A stretch of 35,911 nt of DNA from a virus, in the IMG/VR virus record IMGVR_UViG_3300044911_000226, positions 1 through 35,911 of that record. One strand, written 5' to 3'. A program made the translations under genes and the position numbers. Positions 1 to 35,911 of this stretch are shown one piece after another; within the stretch, counting starts at the first letter, position 1, and every line of letters begins with the position of its first letter. Under the pieces are notes generated by a model that made no database searches, was not told the DNA's origin, and worked only from the letters and a program-made list of their open reading frames with translations.

Positions 1-125
1 AGGTCAAGCTCCTGCTCCTCCACCACAATGTAGTGCGGCACGCCCATCTCATGCAGCGCTCTGGTCGTGAGGCCATTGGCATGGCGGCCCTTGGAAACGA
101 TGTAGACCGGAAACTTAGGATTCAT
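1..125 (-). CDS. TAGT-like glycosyltransferase, 5' fragment at window edge
   Basis: This is the N-terminal part of the gene seen complete at 34982-35893, cut by the window edge. The translation starts MNPKFPVYIVSKGR and is identical to the full copy as far as it goes. It is not a second gene: it belongs to the end overlap. The start chosen is the ATG at 123-125. It lies 7 bases after an AAGGTG sequence, whereas the ATG at 129-131 lies too close to it. The gene overlaps the end of the upstream 78-aa gene. Confidence 0.85.
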   Translation of the reverse strand, partial: MNPKFPVYIVSKGRHANGLTTRALHEMGVPHYIVVEEQELD

Positions 126-143
126 CGACATACACCTTGCGCT
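1..143. repeat. End overlap, copy 1 (circle junction)
   Basis: These 143 bases match 35769-35911 in the same orientation. The two differences are G127 versus A35895 and G139 versus A35907. This is what an assembler leaves at the ends of a circular or circularly permuted phage genome. It implies a unit length of about 35,768 bp. Both differences are synonymous third-position changes in the 78-aa gene that spans the junction, so they look like natural variants more than sequencing errors. Confidence 0.9.
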
Positions 144-351
144 CAAGCCCCCAATGCGACTTGAACGGATGCCAAATGCTTTTTGTTTTTATGGTCAGCT
201 TTTGGTTGATAACTTTTTCAAAGTCTTTGTAGTCGGCCTCGGTATCAAACCTGACGATTAGCTCTTTAAATGGCTCTTTTTTTTCCTGAACAAACTCAGG
301 CATGCCGACCCACTCAGGGTACTCGTCAAACAAATCCTTGTCTCCGGTCAC
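115..351 (-). CDS. Hypothetical protein, 78 aa
   Basis: I do not recognise this family. The protein is charged and soluble, with no membrane segment or cysteine cluster. It contains a stretch beginning ELIVRFDTEADYKDF, which suggests a small alpha/beta fold. The start is GTG (349-351), whose GTGA overlaps the TGA of the DUF2800 nuclease gene, so the two are translationally coupled. Its 3' end overlaps the start of the TAGT glycosyltransferase gene across the circle junction. It therefore sits between a nuclease and a possible DNA-modifying enzyme in the early operon. Position suggests a role in DNA metabolism, but nothing in the sequence proves it. Confidence 0.75.
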   Translation of the reverse strand: MTGDKDLFDEYPEWVGMPEFVQEKKEPFKELIVRFDTEADYKDFEKVINQKLTIKTKSIWHPFKSHWGLERKVYVDES

Positions 352-1397
352 TGCTGCTTCTCCTTAACAAGACTAGCAGCAGCATGCTTCTCACCGATCA
401 GGTCTTCGCTGATCTGTATGTCCAGCTTGGCAATGGCCGATGGCGACTTCAGATCGAATGCCTGCGGATAGGACTTCAGAGCCTCGTAGGCCAAGGCGTC
501 ACTCTTCCAAAACTTGGTCTTGCGACCTGGTCGCAGTGTCCAGCCAATGATGTGCACACCCTCGGTGATCTGCCGCTTGGCTGACTCCAGCACTGCATCC
601 GACCACATGGCTGCAAGCTGGGCAAGCTCAATCATGTCAGGCGTAACGGCTGGCACTGCAATCGTGTCGTCCTTGTCGGCCTGCTTGACAAGATCCGCAA
701 ACTCTTTTCTGGCGTTGTCCTGCACCTTCTGCCGCATGCTCGGGCATATGGGCTTGGCCTTGCAGTAGCGGCAGGCACTGGTGGAAGGGTTGGTTGGTGC
801 GTCATCGGTCAGTGCGAGGTTGGCAGCGGCCAGCAGGTCATGGCCGTGCTTGATCAGGTCAGCGCCTGAGACTGTCCACTTGCTGTGGCCGGCGCGGGGC
901 TGGAAGATGTGCATGGTGCATTGGATGGATGCAGGCGCATTCAACATGCGCATGACGCCCAGAGCGTAGGTCAGCATCTGCTTGTTGTCCTCGGCATCAA
1001 CCAGCACCCTCCCAGTTTTTAAATCGACAATATGTAAATGGTCTTTGTCCACCAGCACGGCATCAGCAGTGCCGCCTAAGGACTGGTGCAGCGTCTTGAG
1101 GCCGGCATCCACATTGACCTCGATCATGCGCTTGCGGGGATTCTCGACCAGCGTGTTGATGAAGGTGGCGTATTCGTTGGCCATGTCAAAGTGATCGTCT
1201 GGGTGATCTTTGGGGTTGACCCCCTCGCCCCGCAGAATTTTTTCGGATAGCTCATGGATAGCCGTGCCAATTGCAGCAGCCTCACCCGCCGGCTCGTATG
1301 GCATGAGGCTTTCCAGCCGGTAAGAGCCTGGGCAGCTCATCACCCTGTCCATGCGGGATGCCGAGAGTCGGGCGTGTTTGCGGTCAGTGTGCTGCAT
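348..1397 (-). CDS. DUF2800 protein, Cas4/RecB-like PD-(D/E)XK nuclease
   Basis: This 349-aa protein fits the DUF2800 family of phage replication modules, a branch of the RecB/Cas4 PD-(D/E)XK nucleases. Visible motifs are His48 in GTAIHEL, Asp112 in GGTADAV, and Asp125/Lys127 in HIVDLKTG (motifs II and III), followed by the conserved Gln140. Cys22 together with Cys209, Cys212 and Cys218 gives the one-plus-three cysteine pattern that binds an Fe-S cluster in AddB and Cas4. The expected role is exonucleolytic processing of DNA ends during replication or recombination. Its partner in this type of module is the DUF2815 SSB-like protein, here at 3399-3965. Its ATG overlaps the end of the 52-aa gene upstream. 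Confidence 0.88.
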   Translation of the reverse strand: MQHTDRKHARLSASRMDRVMSCPGSYRLESLMPYEPAGEAAAIGTAIHELSEKILRGEGVNPKDHPDDHFDMANEYATFINTLVENPRKRMIEVNVDAGLKTLHQSLGGTADAVLVDKDHLHIVDLKTGRVLVDAEDNKQMLTYALGVMRMLNAPASIQCTMHIFQPRAGHSKWTVSGADLIKHGHDLLAAANLALTDDAPTNPSTSACRYCKAKPICPSMRQKVQDNARKEFADLVKQADKDDTIAVPAVTPDMIELAQLAAMWSDAVLESAKRQITEGVHIIGWTLRPGRKTKFWKSDALAYEALKSYPQAFDLKSPSAIAKLDIQISEDLIGEKHAAASLVKEKQQ

Positions 1398-2025: not shown

Positions 2026-3249
2026 TTAGATGATCTGATTAACGATGTTCTGCTTCTTCAGCACCTTAGCCAGCACATTGTGGTCGAGTGATGCCCTGAT
2101 CGTCAGCAGGTAGATGACCGGCTTGACCCCTGACTTGTTGATGTTCTCCACCCTGCTGGATGCCTGCTCCAGTGCAGAGGTTGACCAAGTGCATTCGACA
2201 AAGACGATGGTGTCGGCTGCACTCAGGTCAACCCCTTCACTCATGGCAGCGATATTGCCCACGATCACCTTGGTATGGCCGGACTGAAATGCCGCAATGT
2301 TCTCTGTGCGCTTGGCGGCCGGCGTGTCGCCCACCACCACCACCGGCTTGTGGTCTTTGAGTTCCTCGACCAGGCCATGCACGACATCCTTGTGGTGCGC
2401 GAACACCACCACCGGCTCACCGGATTGCAGCAGGTCGCTGATGAATTCGGACGCCGCCTTGATCTTGCGCATCCCTGCCTCACGCATGATCTCGGCCAAG
2501 CCCTCAAAAGCCATCAGAGCGTTTGGATTGGCAACCAAGGCATCGGCATCAAAGGACTGCTCGCGCTTGTCAATCGGCAGGTCAAAGGTCACCAAGCTCA
2601 CCTGTGGCTCTTTGTAGTCCATGAAGATGTCTTCCTTCTTCCGGCGCAGGACAAAGGGCTTCATCAGGGCTTTGAGTTCAGGGATGTTGGATGCACCTGA
2701 GACATCTAATCCCCAAGGTGCAGAAAAAAGTCTGGCGTACCTTGCAGCAAAGTCAAACCAGCCGCCCCTGTAAATGCCCAAGCCATGCAAGATCGGCCAG
2801 AGTTCGATGGGCCGGTTAGGGATGGGCGTGCCGGACAGGGCATAGACCCGATCAATCTTTTTCATCATCAGCATCGCCGCCTTGGTGCGGATGGCCTTAT
2901 TGTTTTTGAGCCTGTGGCACTCGTCAAACACCACAGTTTTAATTCCTGTAAAAGCCGTGACACTGGAAAGAATGTCGTAGTTCACGATGGTCACGCCAGA
3001 GCAAATAATCTCTGCCGCCTGCTTCTTTCCGGTGATGACGCGCACTGGCACTGAGGGGTCGAGCTTGTTGAATGCCGCTTCCCAAACTGTCTTGGCGATA
3101 GCTGGGCAGACCACGATGGCCGGAAGGTGTTGCAGCGCCGCGGCCGCGGCCGGCAGGGTCTTGCCCACGCGGGGCTGGTCGGCAAGGATGCAGCGCCGGT
3201 TGGCCAGCAGAAAGTCTCTGGCCTCTTCTTGATGGGGGAACAGTTTCAT
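2026..3249 (-). CDS. SNF2-like DEAD/DEAH-box helicase
   Basis: This 407-aa superfamily 2 ATPase of the SNF2-like phage type has two RecA-like domains. Visible motifs are the N-terminal FPHQ (Q-motif-like), Walker A DQPRVGKT (24-31), Walker B FDECH (108-112) and SGTP motif III (139-142). A helicase C domain contains QASSRVENINKSG, an equivalent of the arginine-finger motif VI. Such proteins translocate on duplex DNA and occur in DUF2800/DUF2815 replication modules. The ATG at 3247-3249 is chosen because GAGGAAAACG directly precedes it. A start at 3408 would add 53 residues that read through the divergent promoter region. The unusual PRVGKT replaces the common MGLGKT. Confidence 0.9.
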   Translation of the reverse strand: MKLFPHQEEARDFLLANRRCILADQPRVGKTLPAAAAALQHLPAIVVCPAIAKTVWEAAFNKLDPSVPVRVITGKKQAAEIICSGVTIVNYDILSSVTAFTGIKTVVFDECHRLKNNKAIRTKAAMLMMKKIDRVYALSGTPIPNRPIELWPILHGLGIYRGGWFDFAARYARLFSAPWGLDVSGASNIPELKALMKPFVLRRKKEDIFMDYKEPQVSLVTFDLPIDKREQSFDADALVANPNALMAFEGLAEIMREAGMRKIKAASEFISDLLQSGEPVVVFAHHKDVVHGLVEELKDHKPVVVVGDTPAAKRTENIAAFQSGHTKVIVGNIAAMSEGVDLSAADTIVFVECTWSTSALEQASSRVENINKSGVKPVIYLLTIRASLDHNVLAKVLKKQNIVNQII

Positions 3250-3398
3250 CGTTTTCCTCGTTTTCAGCGGTTTATGGAATCTTGATTGTGGCCGATAAAA
3301 AAACAACATGCAAGAAAAATTTGTGCTAAAGTGCAAATGTCTGGCCGCCTTGGTCAGGCTGAAAACCTGAAACCGATCAACCAAAAGGAAACGATCAA
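3250..3398. promoter_or_regulatory. Divergent control region, helicase / SSB
   Basis: These 149 bases separate the minus-strand helicase from the plus-strand DUF2815 gene and must hold promoters for both. An imperfect dyad (TTTGTGCTAAAGTGCAAA, about 3320-3338) could be an operator. On the minus strand TTGCAT, then 17 bases, then CACAAT is a weak promoter candidate. I see no convincing plus-strand promoter. AAGGA stands ahead of the plus-strand ATG and GAGGA ahead of the minus-strand ATG. Confidence 0.5.
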
Positions 3399-3965
3399 AT
3401 GTCAACAAGAGTCACAACCGGCGAGGTGCGCACCTCCTACTTCTCAGGCTTGCAGAGCCGCAAGAATGAAATGAATGGCAAGGATGAGTACAGCACTCAG
3501 ATCCTGATCCCCAAGACCGACAAAGAAACGCTGGCCGCTTTAAAGGCAGCAGCCAAAGAGGCACTGGTCGCCAAGTTCGGTGACAAAGTGCCGAAAAACA
3601 TCCGCAACCCATTGCGTGATGGCGACACTGAAACCAAGACAGACGGCAGTCCATTGGGCAAAGAGTACGCCGGCCATTTCTTTTGCAATGTCAAGAGCAC
3701 CGCTAAGCCTGGTGCTATTGACGCCCACGGCAATGACCTGATTGGCGCTGACGATATTGTCAGTGGCGACTATGTGCGGGTGAGTCTGAATGCCTATGCC
3801 TACAGCCAAGCTGGCAACAATGGCGTGTCCTTTGGCCTGAACAACATCTTGCTGCTCAAGAAGGGCCAGCCTCTGGGTGGCGCTAAACCAAGCGCCGCTG
3901 ATGACTTCGGCATCGGCAAGTCGGCTGCACCAGCCGCCGCTGCCGCCGAGTCTTCAGACTGGTGA
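3399..3965 (+). CDS. DUF2815 ssDNA-binding-like protein
   Basis: This 188-aa protein fits DUF2815, a phage single-strand DNA-binding family related to T7 gp2.5. The N-terminus carries the family pattern GEVRTSYFSGLQSRK, then the beta segment YSTQILIPK. The middle holds KNIRNPLRDGD and YAGHFFCNVKSTAKPG, and a region with DDIVSGDYVRVSLNAY completes the OB-like core. The tail is alanine-rich and ends in SSDW, an acidic-aromatic tip like those SSBs use to recruit partners. It would coat single strands in recombination and replication. Ribosome site AAGGA is about 9 bases upstream. Its 3' end overlaps the convergent 64-aa HTH gene by 12 bases. Confidence 0.88.
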   Translation: MSTRVTTGEVRTSYFSGLQSRKNEMNGKDEYSTQILIPKTDKETLAALKAAAKEALVAKFGDKVPKNIRNPLRDGDTETKTDGSPLGKEYAGHFFCNVKSTAKPGAIDAHGNDLIGADDIVSGDYVRVSLNAYAYSQAGNNGVSFGLNNILLLKKGQPLGGAKPSAADDFGIGKSAAPAAAAAESSDW

Positions 3966-4148
3966 TTTCTGCTCAATCAGCTTGAGCAAAGCCTGCTCAA
4001 GTTGGTTGACTGAATCCCACAGAGGTTTGACCGACCCAGACATCCAGCGGCTCACCTGCGGCTGCTGGATGCCAGCCTCACGGCATACGGCATTCATCCT
4101 GATGCCATGCTCTCTGGCCTTATCTCTGATGTCTTGTACTGATTGCAT
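3954..4148 (-). CDS. Cro/XRE-like HTH regulator, 64 aa
   Basis: A small HTH protein: the segment around NAVCREAGIQQPQVSRWMSG is a helix-turn-helix of the Cro/CI or YdaS type, with IQQPQVSRW as the recognition helix. It is the only obvious repressor-like protein of this class in the genome. It lies opposite the plus-strand block and overlaps the DUF2815 gene at their 3' ends. A candidate promoter lies at 4186-4214. No strong ribosome site precedes the ATG at 4146-4148, so its expression may be low. It could control the divergent plus-strand genes at 4245-5104. Whether it maintains lysogeny is unknown. Confidence 0.8.
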   Translation of the reverse strand: MQSVQDIRDKAREHGIRMNAVCREAGIQQPQVSRWMSGSVKPLWDSVNQLEQALLKLIEQKSPV

Positions 4149-4185
4149 AGGTGTATTTTAGCAACAACAGATCAATTTATTGACT

Positions 4186-19681: not shown

Positions 19682-20301
19682 CCAAAAGTCTTTGCACGGG
19701 TTAAAAGCGCACCGCCTGATGTCGCACCTCGGTCATCAGCGACTTGCAAATCGGTCAAGGCACGCTCATACAGCGTTGCCCACACCGAGATTCTATTGTC
19801 ATCTTGCAGGTATGGCGCAGCTTGCAGCAGACTTCCGTACAAATAGGCGTCTGGGCTGGACTCCAAAATAAAGTTGGTTGCCACAGAGTTTGACAACTTT
19901 GACAACTTTGCGTAGTAAGTCAACTCAGTCGCATAGTTAGAGTCTGGTGTTGGGACAAGTCTGAATTGTTGGCCGACCACGCCAAAGAACTTGGGCCTGC
20001 CGCTGGCTGTGAATTTTGTGGCCTCTGCATCCAGTGCATCTATCGTCATAAACGACAGCGGGGTAACGGGATTAGTGCCACTCAATTTGAAGGATTTGAC
20101 TTCCAAAAAGTCATTGGGCGTTGCGCCGTACTCGGCATTGAATGAGGCATTGGCCCTGACGATCATCTGCCTGGTGCGCAGCGTGCGTTCCATCTGCGCC
20201 TCGGCCAGAGAGATGAAGTCAGGGATAGCCGCCGTCAGGTCTGACCGATTGAGCCAGTCTGCAATGGATGCCTTCAATTCGGTGTAGGTTGTCAGAGCCA
20301 T
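19678..20301 (-). CDS. Head-tail adaptor protein, 207 aa
   Basis: The N-terminus TTYTELKASIADWLNRSDLT, followed by AAIPDFISLAEAQMERTLR, is a recognisable phage adaptor signature. The rest includes DFLEVKSFKL, GQQFRLVPTP and YYAKLSKLSNS, then LYGSLLQAAPYLQDD, giving a helix-beta-helix layout like the connector proteins that bind below the portal (P22 gp4-like in role). It would link the portal to the tail. It sits in the structural operon after the capsid genes, in an order typical for this phage group, and overlaps its neighbours on both sides. Confidence 0.82.
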   Translation of the reverse strand: MALTTYTELKASIADWLNRSDLTAAIPDFISLAEAQMERTLRTRQMIVRANASFNAEYGATPNDFLEVKSFKLSGTNPVTPLSFMTIDALDAEATKFTASGRPKFFGVVGQQFRLVPTPDSNYATELTYYAKLSKLSNSVATNFILESSPDAYLYGSLLQAAPYLQDDNRISVWATLYERALTDLQVADDRGATSGGALLTRAKTFG

Positions 20302-20945
20302 CAGACTGCCTTTATTTCTTTCATCACCCAGGTGTGGTCATGCTTGAATTCAAAAGTCCCGATGTGGCCAATCTCTTTGGAGACATCGTGATCAATCCAT
20401 ATTTTAAAGCCAGCAGCCGCTGCTTTCTGACAGAAAAAGACATCCTCACCGACATAGCCTCGTTTGTCCACGCGCCAAGGCGTCTCAAACCAAGGCTCGG
20501 CCAGTGCCGCAAAGACATTGGCCTTGATCAGCATCACGCCCATACCCACAGACCCCACCTCTTGCAGGCCGGTGGACTCTGGCATTGTCCAAACCAGTTC
20601 TCTGTCGCCGTTCTCTTTGTAAAGCTGCGCTGTCGGGCCAGTGGGCATTCTACGCCGTGCGCAGTTTGTCGCCACAATGTCAAGGTCGTGCTTGAGTAGT
20701 CGCTCGATCATGTCTTGCGGAAACCGCATGTCAGAGTCAATGAACAGGATGTGGGTGCAGCCCTCGGCCATTGCATCCAGTGACAACTCTGCCCTCTGGT
20801 TGGCAATCAAAGTGCCCTGGCTAATCTTGAGGCTCACAGCGTCATTGGTGTTGATCGTGTGATACGCAACCATGTTCACCAAGTCGTAGCTGTACATGGT
20901 GTGAACCATGTCCCTTGCTGGAGTGCAGACTGCAATGTAGTTCAT
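20301..20945 (-). CDS. GT-A glycosyltransferase (GT2-like), 214 aa
   Basis: A GT2-like enzyme with the DSD metal/nucleotide-sugar motif at 70-72 (HILFIDSDMRFP) and an acceptor-side GEDV at 166-169, then His194. SQGTLIANQRAELSLDAM is typical of phage glycosyltransferases that belong to this fold. There is no membrane helix, so it acts in the cytoplasm. It is embedded between a capsid-adjacent gene and the adaptor gene, and overlaps both. A virion protein is a plausible acceptor, but a sugar or protein target cannot be read from the sequence. DNA modification is an alternative. Confidence 0.88.
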   Translation of the reverse strand: MNYIAVCTPARDMVHTMYSYDLVNMVAYHTINTNDAVSLKISQGTLIANQRAELSLDAMAEGCTHILFIDSDMRFPQDMIERLLKHDLDIVATNCARRRMPTGPTAQLYKENGDRELVWTMPESTGLQEVGSVGMGVMLIKANVFAALAEPWFETPWRVDKRGYVGEDVFFCQKAAAAGFKIWIDHDVSKEIGHIGTFEFKHDHTWVMKEIKAV

Positions 20946-25790: not shown

Positions 25791-26486
25791 TTAAACATCA
25801 AACCAAGCCTTTGCATATTCTGGACGATTCTCCATGAGCCACGGCAGTGCGTCCTCATGCAGTTTTTGGGCATTAAAGCCAATGGTGTTGCTGCCGATGT
25901 GGTGGACATAGCTGGCACTCACAAAATGCGAGTAGCCTTTTTCGATCAAATCCCTACAATGCACATCGTCACTGTACCAATTCAGAGGGGGAAACTTTGC
26001 CTCCTCAAATGCTTCGGCCGAGATCCACGCGAATATCGGGCTGACTTCCTCGGCCATCTTGATATGCGCCTCAGACGGGAATTTGTAAAAGTTCAGCTTC
26101 TCGGGTTTCTCAGTAACCCTCACATTTTGGCAAGGCCGTGCGGCATCAGTCCTTGACGCCACCCAGCCGGCCTTCACGCTGCGCATGGTCTTGATGATTG
26201 CCACATCCTCGATTAAGGTTTTGACGCTGGTCGGGGTCAGCACAATGTCATCGTTGGCCACTATGCAAGATGACCAATCTTTCAGCGCCGACTCAATCAC
26301 CTCGTTGTAGTCATCGCCAAAGTTCCTTGGCTGGCCGTAGATTTTGTGGTCAGCCTCAAAGTTCTCAAGCACCGACTCTGGCCCTCGCAGATAAACCGGA
26401 CACTCTGGCGCGTACTGCTTGATCGACTCCAGCAGCACCGCCAAGCCATGTCCCCTGACTGTGGCAATGACGATGGGACTGATCAT
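25791..26486 (-). CDS. GT-A glycosyltransferase, 231 aa
   Basis: A second GT2-like enzyme: the N-terminus SPIVIATVRGHGLAVLLESI is a typical sugar-nucleotide binding start. The metal-binding motif is NDD at 78-80 (CIVANDDIVLTP). The distal acidic motif is YSDDVHCRDL at 171-180, followed by His-rich SYVHHIGSNT. It is soluble and would act in the cytoplasm. It lies between a small DUF gene and the portal, with 42 bases before the portal ATG. Such enzymes may decorate a virion protein or a host sugar; the acceptor is unknown. It is distinct from the enzyme at 20301-20945. Confidence 0.86.
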   Translation of the reverse strand: MISPIVIATVRGHGLAVLLESIKQYAPECPVYLRGPESVLENFEADHKIYGQPRNFGDDYNEVIESALKDWSSCIVANDDIVLTPTSVKTLIEDVAIIKTMRSVKAGWVASRTDAARPCQNVRVTEKPEKLNFYKFPSEAHIKMAEEVSPIFAWISAEAFEEAKFPPLNWYSDDVHCRDLIEKGYSHFVSASYVHHIGSNTIGFNAQKLHEDALPWLMENRPEYAKAWFDV

Positions 26487-30200: not shown

Positions 30201-30433
30201 TTATATCTATCCTCTTTAATCGCAATCTCAATTACTTCCTTCATGTCATCACTGATTAACTCAAATATATCCGCGCCATTTACCCAGACCTCAACCAGAT
30301 ATACCTGTTCAGGGATAGCCGGCTCAATAACTACCCCCGCCTCTTTAACTTCAGGCTCTGCGGCCTCCCACTCGTACCAGCATTCCAGTGGCTGGCGGCA
30401 TAACCCTGTCACATGTTCATGCATCAATTTCAT
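30197..30433 (-). CDS. Hypothetical acidic protein, 78 aa
   Basis: A small acidic protein with ECWYEWEAAEPEVKEAGVVI, then EQVYLVEVWVNGADIFELIS and KEVIEIAIKEDRYK. Strands and a C-terminal helix suggest a small alpha/beta fold. I do not recognise a family. Its ATG overlaps the serine recombinase stop, and its TGA overlaps the orphan HTH start. It is thus locked between a recombinase and a DNA-binding protein. It could be a directionality or inhibitor protein for either, but that is only positional inference. Confidence 0.72.
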   Translation of the reverse strand: MKLMHEHVTGLCRQPLECWYEWEAAEPEVKEAGVVIEPAIPEQVYLVEVWVNGADIFELISDDMKEVIEIAIKEDRYK

Positions 30434-31098
30434 GCTGTCTCTCCTTGTAATGCCCTGCGGATTGCCTCATGCGAAACAATAACCCCGTGGCTGGTTTTTA
30501 AAATTGCCGATATTGCCCGAAAACTAATTCCTGTCGCCCTCATCTCCTTGGCGTACTTCAGCGCTGCCTGCTCTTCAGGTTTTTCGACCAGGACTGCCGC
30601 CTGACCCGTGCCTTGGATGGTGTACCCGAACTTGGCCGAGCCGCCCAGATGGCCGCCAGCCTTGCGCTTGGCAGCTTGCCCCTGCTTCTGGCGCTCCTTC
30701 AGCACTCTGCGCTCATGGCCGGCGAATGAGCAAAGGATCTCCAGCATCAACTGCGCGTAGATGTTGCTGCTGTCGGTGACATCCCCATGCCCGTTGATGA
30801 TCAGCTTGACACCAAGCTCCTTGCACTTCTTGATCGACTGCAAGGCATCCAGCAAATCACGGCTGAACCGATCCAGCTTGGCCACGATCACAGTGTCGCC
30901 CTGCTGGAGCGTGACTCCGTTGGCGCTGAGTCGTGCAAAGAAGGGGTCTGCGCCAGATACGCCGCCATCCTCAATAAACTGGTCAATGACCAGGTTGTGG
31001 CTCATCGCGTTGCCGCTGATTTGCCGCTTCTGCTCCTGCATGCTGGTGTTGTCAACCTGCTCCGTAGTGCTGACCCTCACATACCCGTAGACTGTCAT
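30430..31098 (-). CDS. Serine recombinase (resolvase/invertase type), 222 aa
   Basis: A small serine recombinase. The catalytic Ser10 is in YGYVRVSTTEQ, with Arg8 nearby. The second active-site set is KLDRFSRDL (74-82), which includes Arg77 and Arg80. A long helix with LEILCSFAGHERRVLKERQK follows. The C-terminal part has GGSAKFGYTIQG and an HTH (GISFRAISAILKTSHGVIVS). It would resolve or invert DNA at short paired dyads. It is too short for a large serine integrase. The ATG at 31096-31098 has GGAAGG upstream; the longer frame from 31137 reads into the promoter. A dyad array lies 160 bp upstream. Confidence 0.9.
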   Translation of the reverse strand: MTVYGYVRVSTTEQVDNTSMQEQKRQISGNAMSHNLVIDQFIEDGGVSGADPFFARLSANGVTLQQGDTVIVAKLDRFSRDLLDALQSIKKCKELGVKLIINGHGDVTDSSNIYAQLMLEILCSFAGHERRVLKERQKQGQAAKRKAGGHLGGSAKFGYTIQGTGQAAVLVEKPEEQAALKYAKEMRATGISFRAISAILKTSHGVIVSHEAIRRALQGETA

Positions 31099-31136
31099 AA
31101 GTTGCCTTCCCTGTAAATTTATTGACTGACAGCGCA

Positions 31137-31164
31137 ATTATGTAGCAGGTTGGCAGGTTGTCAA
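31137..31164 (-). promoter_or_regulatory. Strong sigma70 promoter for the late operon
   Basis: On the minus strand a perfect -35 TTGACA (31159-31164) and a -10 CATAAT (31137-31142, five of six) are 16 bases apart. This is the best consensus promoter I found. Transcription from about 31130 would enter the serine recombinase and could continue through the whole minus-strand late block to about 5.1 kb. An A/T run (31170-31189) lies upstream and may act as an UP element. Confidence 0.78.
31145..31160. promoter_or_regulatory. Tandem 8-bp repeat in the promoter spacer (operator candidate)
   Basis: GCAGGTTG occurs twice in direct tandem (31145-31152 and 31153-31160), filling the -35/-10 spacer of the late promoter and the start of its -35 box. 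A close copy, GCAGGTTGGTAGGT, lies at 31196-31209. A protein bound here would block RNA polymerase. Candidates are the serine recombinase itself or the orphan HTH protein. Confidence 0.6.
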
Positions 31165-32754: not shown

Positions 32755-34929
32755 TCAGCCCTCATGGCGGCCACCATTGCCCAGCAAATTCCATGCATTG
32801 TTCTCTGCATCTGGTGCGAATCTTCTTAGAACTGACAGGCCAACGGAGCGTTTTACATCGCCTTTTGACGCTCCAGGCACGGCTGCATAAACTTCAGCCC
32901 ATTCCAATTTGTAGGCATTCGGATGTAACTTGCATTCCTTGGGAGCGTTTGATCCCTTGCGGATAACGACCCCTTCGGGATGCTCGTTCAGGATTGACTG
33001 CACGAATGAAGCCGCCATGTCGCACTTGTCCATGACTCTGATGGACTTGTTTTCTTCAATGCGTTGCGCGGCCTCTTGCTTTCTGGATGCTTCTGATGTC
33101 GGGTATGGGATGACTGTAATGCACTGGACATCCTGCATGTTGCCGTGACGGGTCAGGACAACCTCATTGTGAATGTGGGTCTGAAAGCTGATCTCGCGGT
33201 GGATCGGCTCGTATCGGGTCTTGATGAGCCGCATGAAGCGGTTCTTGTCATCATCCATGAACAGGATGGCGGTCAGGGTTGCGTCACCAGTGAAGGCACT
33301 TGCGCCACGGGCCAGAGCGCTGTCGTCATTCGTTTGTGCAGTCTTGGCGGTGTGGGTGATGATCTTAATCGGGGTGGAGAGTTGGGTGTAGATAGTCTGC
33401 TTGATGGCGGCCATATAACTGCCGACCTCAGAGTTATCATTCTCATTATCTATTTCTAATGTGGCATTTGAAGTATCTATTATGAGGAATGGCCGTTCAG
33501 TAGTTGTGTGTCTGATGACATTCTCTGCTAATAATAATATCTCTGGCACTTTGGAGCGTTTTGATTCAATGACGATAAACCAATGGGCGACTTCAGTCGG
33601 GTCAAGATTCCAGTATTTCACATAAGCATAAAGAGATTGCCTGACTTGATTAGCATCCTCGGTGACATAAAGAATCTTTCTACGGGATTCTGTTTTGAGT
33701 GGGGAGTCGGACAGAGTAAATCCAGCGGCGATAAGGCAGACTGAGATTATTGCTGTGGTCTTGCCCACACCAGGCTGGCCGGCGGTGACGCTGAAAGAAT
33801 GGGCGAGAAAGCCATCGATCAAATACTCGACAGGGTAGAGCTTGGTCAGGTCGAGGCTGAGTTCTTTCCAGTACGGGGCTGGCTGGTCTGTGGGTGTTAG
33901 CTGGTCACTGGCGACTTGAGCCTGCTGCGCTTGGATGTAGGTGGAGAAGTCCTCGACTGCCGACTTTCGCTCTTCGGCGCGGCTCGGCGCTGAGTAGCCG
34001 CCAAGTTTGGCATGATGGAACAGCGTGCCGATGGAGACGCCCTTGCCTTGGTGGAACGACTTCCAATGCGTGTCGATGTCCTGCTCTGACTTGTACTTCG
34101 CGCCTTGACTGCTCCAGCCGGCCCAGAGTTGATGGCCTTGAGCGCCAAAGGCCGTATGCAGCGCTTGGCCGATCTCGATCCATGTCGTGTAATCGCTGTC
34201 AGGGTTGATGAAGTACAGTGCGGCTGCAGCCTTGCTGTAGTCATCAGTGAAGCTTGACAGGGTTGGCTGGTACTCCTGCTTGGGCCTTGGCACTTCAACC
34301 GGCTGGTTGGAGTTGTCCTGCTCAATGACGCCCCACATAGTGAGCAAAGACAGCAAATTGTCATGGGTTTCGTTGGAGAGCTTGCCGTTGAGCTTCTGGC
34401 CTGACAGCAGCACCGACTTGCCTGGGCTTGTTGGCAGCCCGAACACCTCGATCTCTTGGCCGCCACCGAGTTTGTACTTGGGCTTGATCTTGTCCAGATC
34501 CTCATCAGCCACGAACAGGAAGACATGCCGACCCCTGCCGGAGACGCTTACCTCCGTCAATTGATCCTGCTGCTTGACCCACTCGGCCATGCGTTTGATG
34601 GCGATATTTGTCGCGCCTGTTGAGTGCTTCATGTCCACATCAAGGCAGACAAGGTAAGCGCCTTGGCTCATGGCCGGCGATTGCATCACGATGCCCAGAT
34701 AGTTGCCGGCTGGCGCGGCATCCATCGTCAGCACCTCTGATGCGCTGTAAAGCTGATCAGGTGGAGTGTCCCGCGCTACACCTTGGCCGGACTTTTTGTA
34801 GGGGATCTTCTTGCCGTCAAGAGTGGTGGCAAAGGTGCAGAACACTGCACTCGGATGCTGCTCGATCAGCTTGACAGCAATGGCCTGAGAGTTTGAAAAC
34901 TCTGTGTCTATTTTTGGTAAAATGCTCAT
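32755..34929 (-). CDS. Primase-helicase (PrimPol + PriCT-2 + AAA_25), 724 aa
   Basis: A replicative primase-helicase. The N-terminal PrimPol-like domain has LVCLDVDMKH with Asp97/Asp99 and SGRGRHVFLFV (130-140). A PriCT-2 domain follows (about 228-312, DYSKAAAALYFINPDSDYTT, then WIEIGQALH). The C-terminal RepA-like AAA_25 helicase has Walker A AGQPGVGKTT (383-392), YVTEDAN and Walker B FLIIDTSNA with Asp485. It would prime and unwind at the adjacent origin-like region. The ATG at 34927-34929 has only a weak ribosome site, but a minigene with a strong one overlaps it. The length fits the family. Confidence 0.93.
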   Translation of the reverse strand: MSILPKIDTEFSNSQAIAVKLIEQHPSAVFCTFATTLDGKKIPYKKSGQGVARDTPPDQLYSASEVLTMDAAPAGNYLGIVMQSPAMSQGAYLVCLDVDMKHSTGATNIAIKRMAEWVKQQDQLTEVSVSGRGRHVFLFVADEDLDKIKPKYKLGGGQEIEVFGLPTSPGKSVLLSGQKLNGKLSNETHDNLLSLLTMWGVIEQDNSNQPVEVPRPKQEYQPTLSSFTDDYSKAAAALYFINPDSDYTTWIEIGQALHTAFGAQGHQLWAGWSSQGAKYKSEQDIDTHWKSFHQGKGVSIGTLFHHAKLGGYSAPSRAEERKSAVEDFSTYIQAQQAQVASDQLTPTDQPAPYWKELSLDLTKLYPVEYLIDGFLAHSFSVTAGQPGVGKTTAIISVCLIAAGFTLSDSPLKTESRRKILYVTEDANQVRQSLYAYVKYWNLDPTEVAHWFIVIESKRSKVPEILLLAENVIRHTTTERPFLIIDTSNATLEIDNENDNSEVGSYMAAIKQTIYTQLSTPIKIITHTAKTAQTNDDSALARGASAFTGDATLTAILFMDDDKNRFMRLIKTRYEPIHREISFQTHIHNEVVLTRHGNMQDVQCITVIPYPTSEASRKQEAAQRIEENKSIRVMDKCDMAASFVQSILNEHPEGVVIRKGSNAPKECKLHPNAYKLEWAEVYAAVPGASKGDVKRSVGLSVLRRFAPDAENNAWNLLGNGGRHEG

Positions 34930-34981: not shown

Positions 34982-35893
34982 TTACCCCTGACAGTTCACG
35001 CTGTCAGGGGTTTTTCTTTGGGAGGTTGATTCTAGTGCTTGGGTCATGCCGTAGTTGTTAATCTTCGGCATGGCACTCACATCTACAGTCCTGATAAGCC
35101 TGTTGTTTTTAAATCTTGAGTAATCGACATGGTGATGCCATCGATTGAACTTAAAAACAACTTTGGCCACATCTGGATGCAGATCGGCCAGCATCTGGCT
35201 CTTGGGCAAAGTCCCTTCTGCATCGTAAAAATCTGCACTGTTGCCACCACGCATTCGCTGTGTGGTGATCTTTCCGCACAGGAATGCATTGAACTGAATA
35301 GTGCAGAGTCCATCCTTTAGTACGCGAATACTCAGGTCAGTGTCCTCGTTGTATCGCCCCCGCCAGCGGTAGCCGGAGTGGTTGTCGATCAGCAGGCATG
35401 AGTAAATGCGCGTGTTCAAGATGTACGGGGGAACGGGGTCGCCCTTCTTGCAAAAAGAGTAGTAGTTGAGGCCGGCCACTGGCACATTGGAATAGCGGCA
35501 AACAAAATCCTCTGCTGCTAAAAGGGTTGAGCCTGTCCTGACCTCAAATTTCTCGTTCCGGTTGAGGTAGTGGAAGGCATCGATGTTGTCATCCATTACC
35601 CAATGACGGGGGTGCTTCATCCAGATAGAGTGATCGATGCAGAAGTTTCGTGCGGGGCCCGGCCCTGTGCTCTTCCCCGCATACCCCAAAACATCACAGG
35701 TTTCGTACTCTGCCTTGTATATCGGCGGCAGCACCAGCAATTCCCCGTAGCACCTGCCGGCCCTGTACAGGTCAAGCTCCTGCTCCTCCACCACAATGTA
35801 GTGCGGCACGCCCATCTCATGCAGCGCTCTGGTCGTGAGGCCATTGGCATGGCGGCCCTTGGAAACGATGTAGACCGGAAACTTAGGATTCAT
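34982..35893 (-). CDS. TET-associated-type glycosyltransferase (TAGT-like), 303 aa
   Basis: The sequence fits the TAGT family, GT-A fold enzymes that in characterised phages add sugars to 5-hydroxymethylcytosine. Evidence: KFPVYIVSKGR and GVPHYIVVEEQE at the start, GPGPARNF (77-84), the metal-binding WVMDDNID (98-105), NEDTDLSIR (182-190) and RWHHHVDY (251-258). It is soluble. ATG 35891-35893 is chosen: AAGGTG is 7 bases upstream, whereas ATG 35897-35899 is too close, and the end-overlap variant there changes Ser to Leu. It lies between the DUF2800 nuclease block and the primase. No TET/JBP dioxygenase is visible, so the acceptor is unclear. Confidence 0.85.
   Translation of the reverse strand: MNPKFPVYIVSKGRHANGLTTRALHEMGVPHYIVVEEQELDLYRAGRCYGELLVLPPIYKAEYETCDVLGYAGKSTGPGPARNFCIDHSIWMKHPRHWVMDDNIDAFHYLNRNEKFEVRTGSTLLAAEDFVCRYSNVPVAGLNYYSFCKKGDPVPPYILNTRIYSCLLIDNHSGYRWRGRYNEDTDLSIRVLKDGLCTIQFNAFLCGKITTQRMRGGNSADFYDAEGTLPKSQMLADLHPDVAKVVFKFNRWHHHVDYSRFKNNRLIRTVDVSAMPKINNYGMTQALESTSQRKTPDSVNCQG
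34985..35015 (+). terminator. Terminator-like hairpin, plus-strand sense
   Basis: CCCCTGACAG (34985-34994) and CTGTCAGGGG (35001-35010) make a perfect 10-bp stem followed by TTTTT (35011-35015) on the plus strand. It lies inside the last codons of the minus-strand TAGT gene. On that strand no T-run follows. It may stop antisense transcription or be a relic of an older gene order. Confidence 0.65.
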
Positions 35894-35911
35894 CAACATA
35901 CACCTTACGCT
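35769..35911. repeat. End overlap, copy 2 (circle junction)
   Basis: Second copy of bases 1-143, with A at 35895 and 35907 in place of G. Joining the two ends restores one continuous TAGT gene and its upstream 78-aa neighbour. See copy 1 for the meaning. Confidence 0.9.

Follow-up and report, generated by a model that had tools for sequence, protein, structure and literature searches.

A TET-free TAGT-family glycosyltransferase is constantly paired with a small ParB-like tail domain in phage genomes

TAGT glycosyltransferases take their name from TET. In the TET-linked cassettes of actinophages and similar phages (L276-L279), the genes follow the order ParB-like, TET, TAGT and PIG-L-like in the loci read; the ParB-like gene was recognized there by eye, in truncated pieces without a Pfam match. 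Outside this setting, the TAGT of phage T6 is held to glucosylate already-glucosylated hmC in DNA, according to passages of two recent accounts (PMC13216743, PMC13390438), and the glucosyltransferase of the Aeromonas phages Aeh1 and 65 has been described, in wording relayed by a later paper, as an enzyme that "presumably modifies DNA, unknown base" (Iyer et al., 2013, via PMC8056088). A literature search for nucleoside data on Aeh1 and 65 found none. In the passages on TAGTs of one survey, 288 of 753 phages are reported to have TAGTs with neither an alpha- nor a beta-GT, and their enzymes are proposed as potential novel transferases (PMC13216743). Lastly, ParBc proteins recur, without a known role, in phage DNA-modification clusters (PMC12783734).

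The window analyzed here is the whole 35,911-nucleotide stretch of viral DNA recorded as IMGVR_UViG_3300044911_000226. Like the TET-linked cassettes, it encodes a PF20691 GT-A enzyme with DD and GG motifs common to both, and a ParB-like gene adjoins the enzyme in those cassettes; unlike them, it has no TET, no PIG-L-like gene and no ParB_N. The TET-linked TAGTs are just 18-19% identical to that of the window, and the profile of the window-type partner described below found no match in their loci. With the T6 enzyme, the window TAGT shares membership of PF20691 (39 bits for T6), the phrog_842 annotation and the GT-A fold attributed to T6 TAGT in a passage of PMC13216743, but identity is only 14%, the partner domain was not found with T6, and neither gp42 nor alpha-GT, after which the T6 enzyme acts, is encoded by the window phage. 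By sequence identity (14-19%), the TAGTs of T6 and of the TET-linked cassettes belong to subfamilies different from that of the window enzyme. The Aeh1/65 enzyme is directly related to that of the window (49-64% identity across the TAGT portion) and is found in phages that likewise lack TET; these differ from the window in having the partner fused to the N-terminus, a large T4-like genome and a thymidylate-synthase-family gene. Because the T4 gp42 hydroxymethylase is not listed for Aeh1 and 65 and the dCTPase gp56 is absent (Petrov et al., PMC2993671), the latter genes are probably true thymidylate synthases. The solitary TAGTs of PMC13216743 present the same general observation as the window, a TAGT without classical glucosyltransferases, and the passages on TAGTs in that account do not mention a 78-aa or ParB-tail partner. 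In CmoX-type ParBc clusters (PMC12783734), a ParB-like protein adjoins a DNA-modifying enzyme, an arrangement like that of the window, but the enzyme is a carboxymethyltransferase instead of a glycosyltransferase, and the window keeps the ParB tail alone. A literature search of partial coverage yielded no description of a ParB-tail partner of TAGT. TAGTs without alpha- and beta-GT are already known, as passages of PMC13216743 attest; for the ParB-tail partner, no priority is claimed.

The identification of the window enzyme as a TAGT, proposed in an initial annotation made from the sequence, is borne out by a match to the Pfam TAGT family PF20691 that spans the entire profile (positions 1-205 of 205) and scores 157.8 bits (cut-off 27.5; E = 4.6e-46), with no placement in an unrelated glycosyltransferase family; phrog_842, "beta-glucosyl-HMC-alpha-glucosyltransferase", also matches (E = 1.6e-48). 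The annotation had put the reading frame at 34982-35893, which is the right place, but the gene lies on the minus strand and extends to 35899 if the outer ATG is used. The start is hence either at 35899 (305 aa) or at 35893 (303 aa), and the plus strand opposite the gene is riddled with stops. Structure prediction, which the annotation had recommended, gave a confident GT-A fold (AlphaFold2 with 46 relatives; pLDDT 90.4, pTM 0.88), and both Foldseek and VIA-align place the window model and a fused homologue among GT-A glycosyltransferases, the latter reaching Z 13.7 in VIA-align. The best Foldseek PDB matches are protein- or glycan-modifying glycosyltransferases, with collagen hydroxylysine galactosyltransferase and GnT-I among the nearest, and the nearest VIA-align matches are polypeptide GalNAc-transferases; such model-based matches would neither support nor exclude a DNA acceptor. 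A PDB sequence search found no useful relative of either the TAGT or the 78-aa protein. The DDN motif is invariant in 46 aligned relatives, as are the NTR, NED and GGN motifs and RxxH, and its DD pair also aligns in the TET-linked and T6 TAGTs. Compared with locus L006, dN/dS is 0.05 for the TAGT and 0.03 for the 78-aa gene, indicating strong purifying selection on both; against remoter relatives, synonymous sites are saturated and few amino acids have changed.

The window ends in a 143-bp repeat with two mismatches, which closes the contig at about 35.77 kb (Table 1). Since its ends share this repeat, the window is taken to be a circular-type complete phage contig, and the two mismatches would reflect slight strain variation at the junction. 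The left repeat copy gives a partial TAGT match (6-113). The repeat therefore supports the circle assumed in the initial annotation, on which the 78-aa gene is the immediate upstream neighbor of the TAGT: the enzyme is flanked by a primase-helicase on one side and, across the junction, by the 78-aa gene and then a DUF2800 nuclease. The virion genes identified by Pfam (portal, capsid, adaptor) are SU10-like, and the phage that carries them also encodes a serine recombinase (30430-31137, minus strand; Resolvase domain, E 2.7e-28); no DNA polymerase gene was seen in the window. The virion module holds a GT-A-like gene at 20301-20945 (minus strand; weak Anp1 match, E 1.9e-9, phrog_1574) and another at 25791-26486 (minus strand) that has no Pfam match and resembles a GT only on visual inspection. 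As these occur in just three and two, respectively, of 21 TAGT genomes, they are placed outside the cassette defined below.

Table 1. Features of the window that bear on the TAGT locus, in order of position.
Feature	Position	Strand	Basis or remark
End repeat, left copy; holds TAGT N-terminus and end of 78-aa gene	1..143	.	141/143 identical to 35769-35911
Overlap of 78-aa stop and TAGT start (ATGTCGATGAATCCTAA), window-start copy	115..131	-	sequence
78-aa partner, ParB-like C-terminal-type domain standing alone (EWxxMPEFxQ...KTKSIWHP)	115..351	-	upstream of TAGT on circle
DUF2800 PD-(D/E)XK nuclease, upstream gene, strand as TAGT	348..1397	-	PF10926 7.8e-48, PF12705 4.9e-17
SNF2-type helicase, same replication module	2026..3408	-	PF00176 4e-20
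Enc34-type ssDNA-binding protein	3399..3965	+	PF10991 3.3e-46
PriCT-2/AAA primase-helicase, immediately downstream of TAGT	32755..34929	-	PF08707 6.4e-19, PF13481 1.1e-15
TAGT-family GT-A glycosyltransferase, 303-305 aa, intact	34982..35899	-	PF20691, AF2 model, GT-A matches, dN/dS
DDN (DxD-type) motif, residues 101-103, end of predicted core strand	35585..35593	-	alignment
End repeat, right copy	35769..35911	.	pairs with 1-143

When the neighbors of related TAGT genes are clustered, the upstream neighbor stays the same and all others vary. Its product is a domain of about 75 aa with the motif EWxxMPEFxQ...QKLTxKTKSIWHP (alignment A1). The domain adjoins or is fused with TAGT in all 80 loci retrieved starting from TAGT. 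The converse, partner-first search found TAGT beside the domain in 239 of 240 loci from viral contigs and isolates, and in 21 of 22 loci from bacterial and archaeal genome contigs, the exception lying at a contig end in either case. Furthermore, when the 53 genes of the window were compared with 21 other TAGT genomes, just two of them, TAGT and the 78-aa gene, recurred in 21/21; since these genomes were picked for TAGT, what the comparison tells is that the partner is universal and that no third gene is common to all, the next best candidate reaching 8/21. The suggestion that a neighboring small gene takes part is thus strongly supported for the 78-aa gene by constant pairing and by fusions with TAGT, and fails for the 68- and 59-aa genes, which are not conserved with TAGT in the 21 genomes. 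We here define a ParB-tail/TAGT cassette as a TAGT with an EWxxMPEFxQ...KTKSIWxP domain either next to it or fused to it, an arrangement that the window displays in gene 115-351 beside its TAGT, and we conclude with high confidence that TAGT and the 78-aa partner form a functional unit.

Partner and TAGT constitute a single protein in Vibrio phages 1.076.O and 1.124.O, Aeromonas phages avDM6 and Aeh1, Tenacibaculum phage PTm1 and Pectobacterium phage POP12, as well as in IMG/VR loci L044-L047. VIA-align of the fused model hardly covered the partner domain and gave no fold for it. Parsimony mapping of the fused and split states on the tree calls for six changes, at least three of them forced by well-supported branches. 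Among the 202 split loci measured, 141 show an overlap of 11 nt when the inner ATG is taken as the start. A programmed frameshift making the fusion is disfavored because, in spite of this common overlap, three relative frames of partner and TAGT occur in these loci (185/15/2); for the same reason, simple start-stop coupling would fit the split loci better. The cassette resides mostly among DNA replication and recombination genes, in many backbones, and in virion-gene regions of some phages, as in Vibrio phage 1.076.O, where the fused gene separates portal from head-morphogenesis genes.

The connection of the partner with ParB emerged from a broader partner alignment (A6). In 55 of 79 further loci, the partner domain forms the end of a long ParB-like protein that precedes TAGT. 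ParB_N was present in all six long partner proteins scanned (four of them above the cut-off), and Pfam gave nothing for two pieces of ParB-type partners (L187, L194). By eye, the sequences of the downstream genes in ParB-type loci resemble those of the two terminase subunits, small and large, and of portal. No ParB_N (PF02195) was found in seven small TAGT phage genomes, the window included; on this sequence evidence, the window pair is taken to retain just the ParB-like tail, devoid of ParB_N.

Several loci interpose a single gene between partner and TAGT, encoding a class I methyltransferase in L134, L136, L137, L161 and L163, and a phrog_799 DNA-methyltransferase-like protein in four others (L138, L142, L143, L146). 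These inserted enzymes suggest a pathway with optional tailoring steps, of which the window is the minimal form. An unassigned gene of 350-360 aa, GT-B-like by eye only, occupies the same place in L153 (6191-7237) and L179 (6229-7311), and in an archaeal locus (L187, 787-3459; Methanomicrobiales MAG) the partner domain ends a long protein that is followed by a radical-SAM protein and TAGT. Tandem TAGT pairs, possibly serving successive sugars, were seen in Vibrio phage Kuja (L091, 4004-6206) and in a Verrucomicrobiaceae MAG (L184, 6242-8076).

The initial annotation had noted by eye that the phage carries no TET/JBP, hydroxymethylase or nucleotide kinase, and had looked to TET as the expected partner of a TAGT. 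A Pfam scan of all other window genes, except a doubtful overlapping plus-strand ORF (3877-4161), identified virion proteins of SU10-like type, proteins of replication and a single unrelated GT-A-like gene. It revealed neither a dioxygenase nor a thymidylate synthase, no nucleotide kinase or DNA methyltransferase, and no alpha/beta-glucosyltransferase or other second DNA glucosyltransferase. Searching all six frames of the record likewise gave no match, whether with PF12851, PF00303, PF00145 or a profile of phage TETs, which upholds the reported absence; no TET missed by eye came to light. Beyond the window, the TET family PF12851 matched 0 of 43 and then 0 of 28 related TAGT records from IMG/VR and isolates (0/71), many of which are fragments (besides the window, 6 of 21 fetched genomes carry end repeats). 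The second set held, beside the 28, two controls: Mycobacterium phage Nigel, detected at 4e-8, below the curated cut-off, and cyanophage PSS2, which we take to be a TET control and which went undetected. PF12851 by itself is hence a weak control. A profile built from an alignment of seven Nigel-type TETs (A2) recovered the control Nigel at 1e-162 and matched 0 of 50 TAGT records, ruling out that TET was missed through a weak profile. Thymidylate-synthase-family genes (PF00303) were present in 2 of 43 records and in seven large phages of the second set, and the absence of PF00145 from the 43 records rules out a C5-methyltransferase as precursor maker. The expectation of a TET partner does not hold for this subfamily, given its absence from all 71 related records: in the clade to which the window TAGT belongs, going without TET is the norm, and no accident.

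On balance, we regard the cassette as a TET-independent, two-part phage glycosyltransferase, probably DNA-modifying. The 305-aa TAGT would be the catalytic part, a sugar-transferring GT-A enzyme with the invariant DDN as metal/donor motif, for which a host UDP-sugar is the most likely donor. The 78-aa protein would be its dedicated partner, docking or positioning TAGT on DNA, and the pair would mark phage DNA after replication, affording protection against host nucleases. We infer the physical interaction, the DNA target and the counter-defense role; that the pair likely acts on DNA is suggested by the ParB link, the DNA roles of the family, the inserted DNA-methyltransferase-like genes and the replication-gene neighborhoods. 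Against this reading stand the absence of a phage enzyme making a hydroxyl on the base, the reduction of the window partner to a ParB-like tail without ParB_N, and the location of the cassette among virion genes in some phages. In the main rival, a fairly unlikely one in our estimate, the acceptor would be a protein, whether of the virion or of host defense or replication, or else a glycan at the cell surface, and the ParB-like tail would be a protein-docking domain. In its favor, the phage has no base hydroxylase, the fused gene of 1.076.O is flanked by portal and head-morphogenesis genes, and the nearest structural matches (collagen hydroxylysine galactosyltransferase, GnT-I and polypeptide GalNAc-transferases) modify proteins or glycans. 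GT-A folds are, however, common to many acceptors, which makes fold matches silent on this point, and a non-DNA acceptor sits poorly with a ParB-derived partner, with neighbors that are mostly DNA-replication genes and with the ties of TET-linked and T6 PF20691 members to DNA modification.

If DNA is the target, the missing hydroxyl may be accounted for in two ways. The pair may glycosylate a DNA base without oxidation, directly on a canonical or merely methylated base (e.g., at an exocyclic amine), a tentative proposal that we deem unlikely. Alternatively, the host or an unrecognized phage enzyme may supply a hydroxymethylated or hydroxylated base, on which TAGT would act as T-even enzymes do. 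The known chemistry of PF20691 members, which requires a hydroxyl, speaks for such a supply, as does the precedent of Krischvirus SAP, which shows that hidden hmC routes exist: its DNA, according to a passage of that report, has glucosylated hmC and its genome no known hmC synthase or glucosyltransferase (PMC13390438). An unrecognized common phage enzyme is nonetheless unlikely, for no further gene is common to the 21 genomes. To our knowledge, there are no hosts with large-scale base hydroxymethylation, which argues against a host supply. With Aeh1 and 65, bearers of the fused version, also not listed with gp42 and without gp56 (PMC2993671), a supplied hydroxylated base appears quite improbable. 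Lastly, the lack of any pathway partner of known chemistry in the window could point to an inactive relic or a passenger without a role, an extremely improbable reading that is already contradicted by selection and conservation data: the catalytic-type motifs are intact, the fold is predicted with high confidence, both genes are under strong purifying selection, and overlap and pairing are conserved in about 240 loci.

With a family named for TET, members that lack it give the impression of broken pathways. What emerges from the data is a self-contained unit of two genes, widespread among unrelated small phages, whose conserved partner links TAGT to ParB-like proteins. The acceptor puzzle posed by solitary TAGTs in the TAGT passages of PMC13216743, and the "unknown base" of Aeh1 as relayed in PMC8056088, are thereby turned into a two-protein system open to expression and assay. 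If the acceptor is indeed an unmodified base, the cassette would represent new DNA chemistry and a compact counter-defense device, and direct base glycosylation, if true, would be a new and minimal way of making hypermodified phage DNA, with two genes and no need of TET or a hydroxymethylase.
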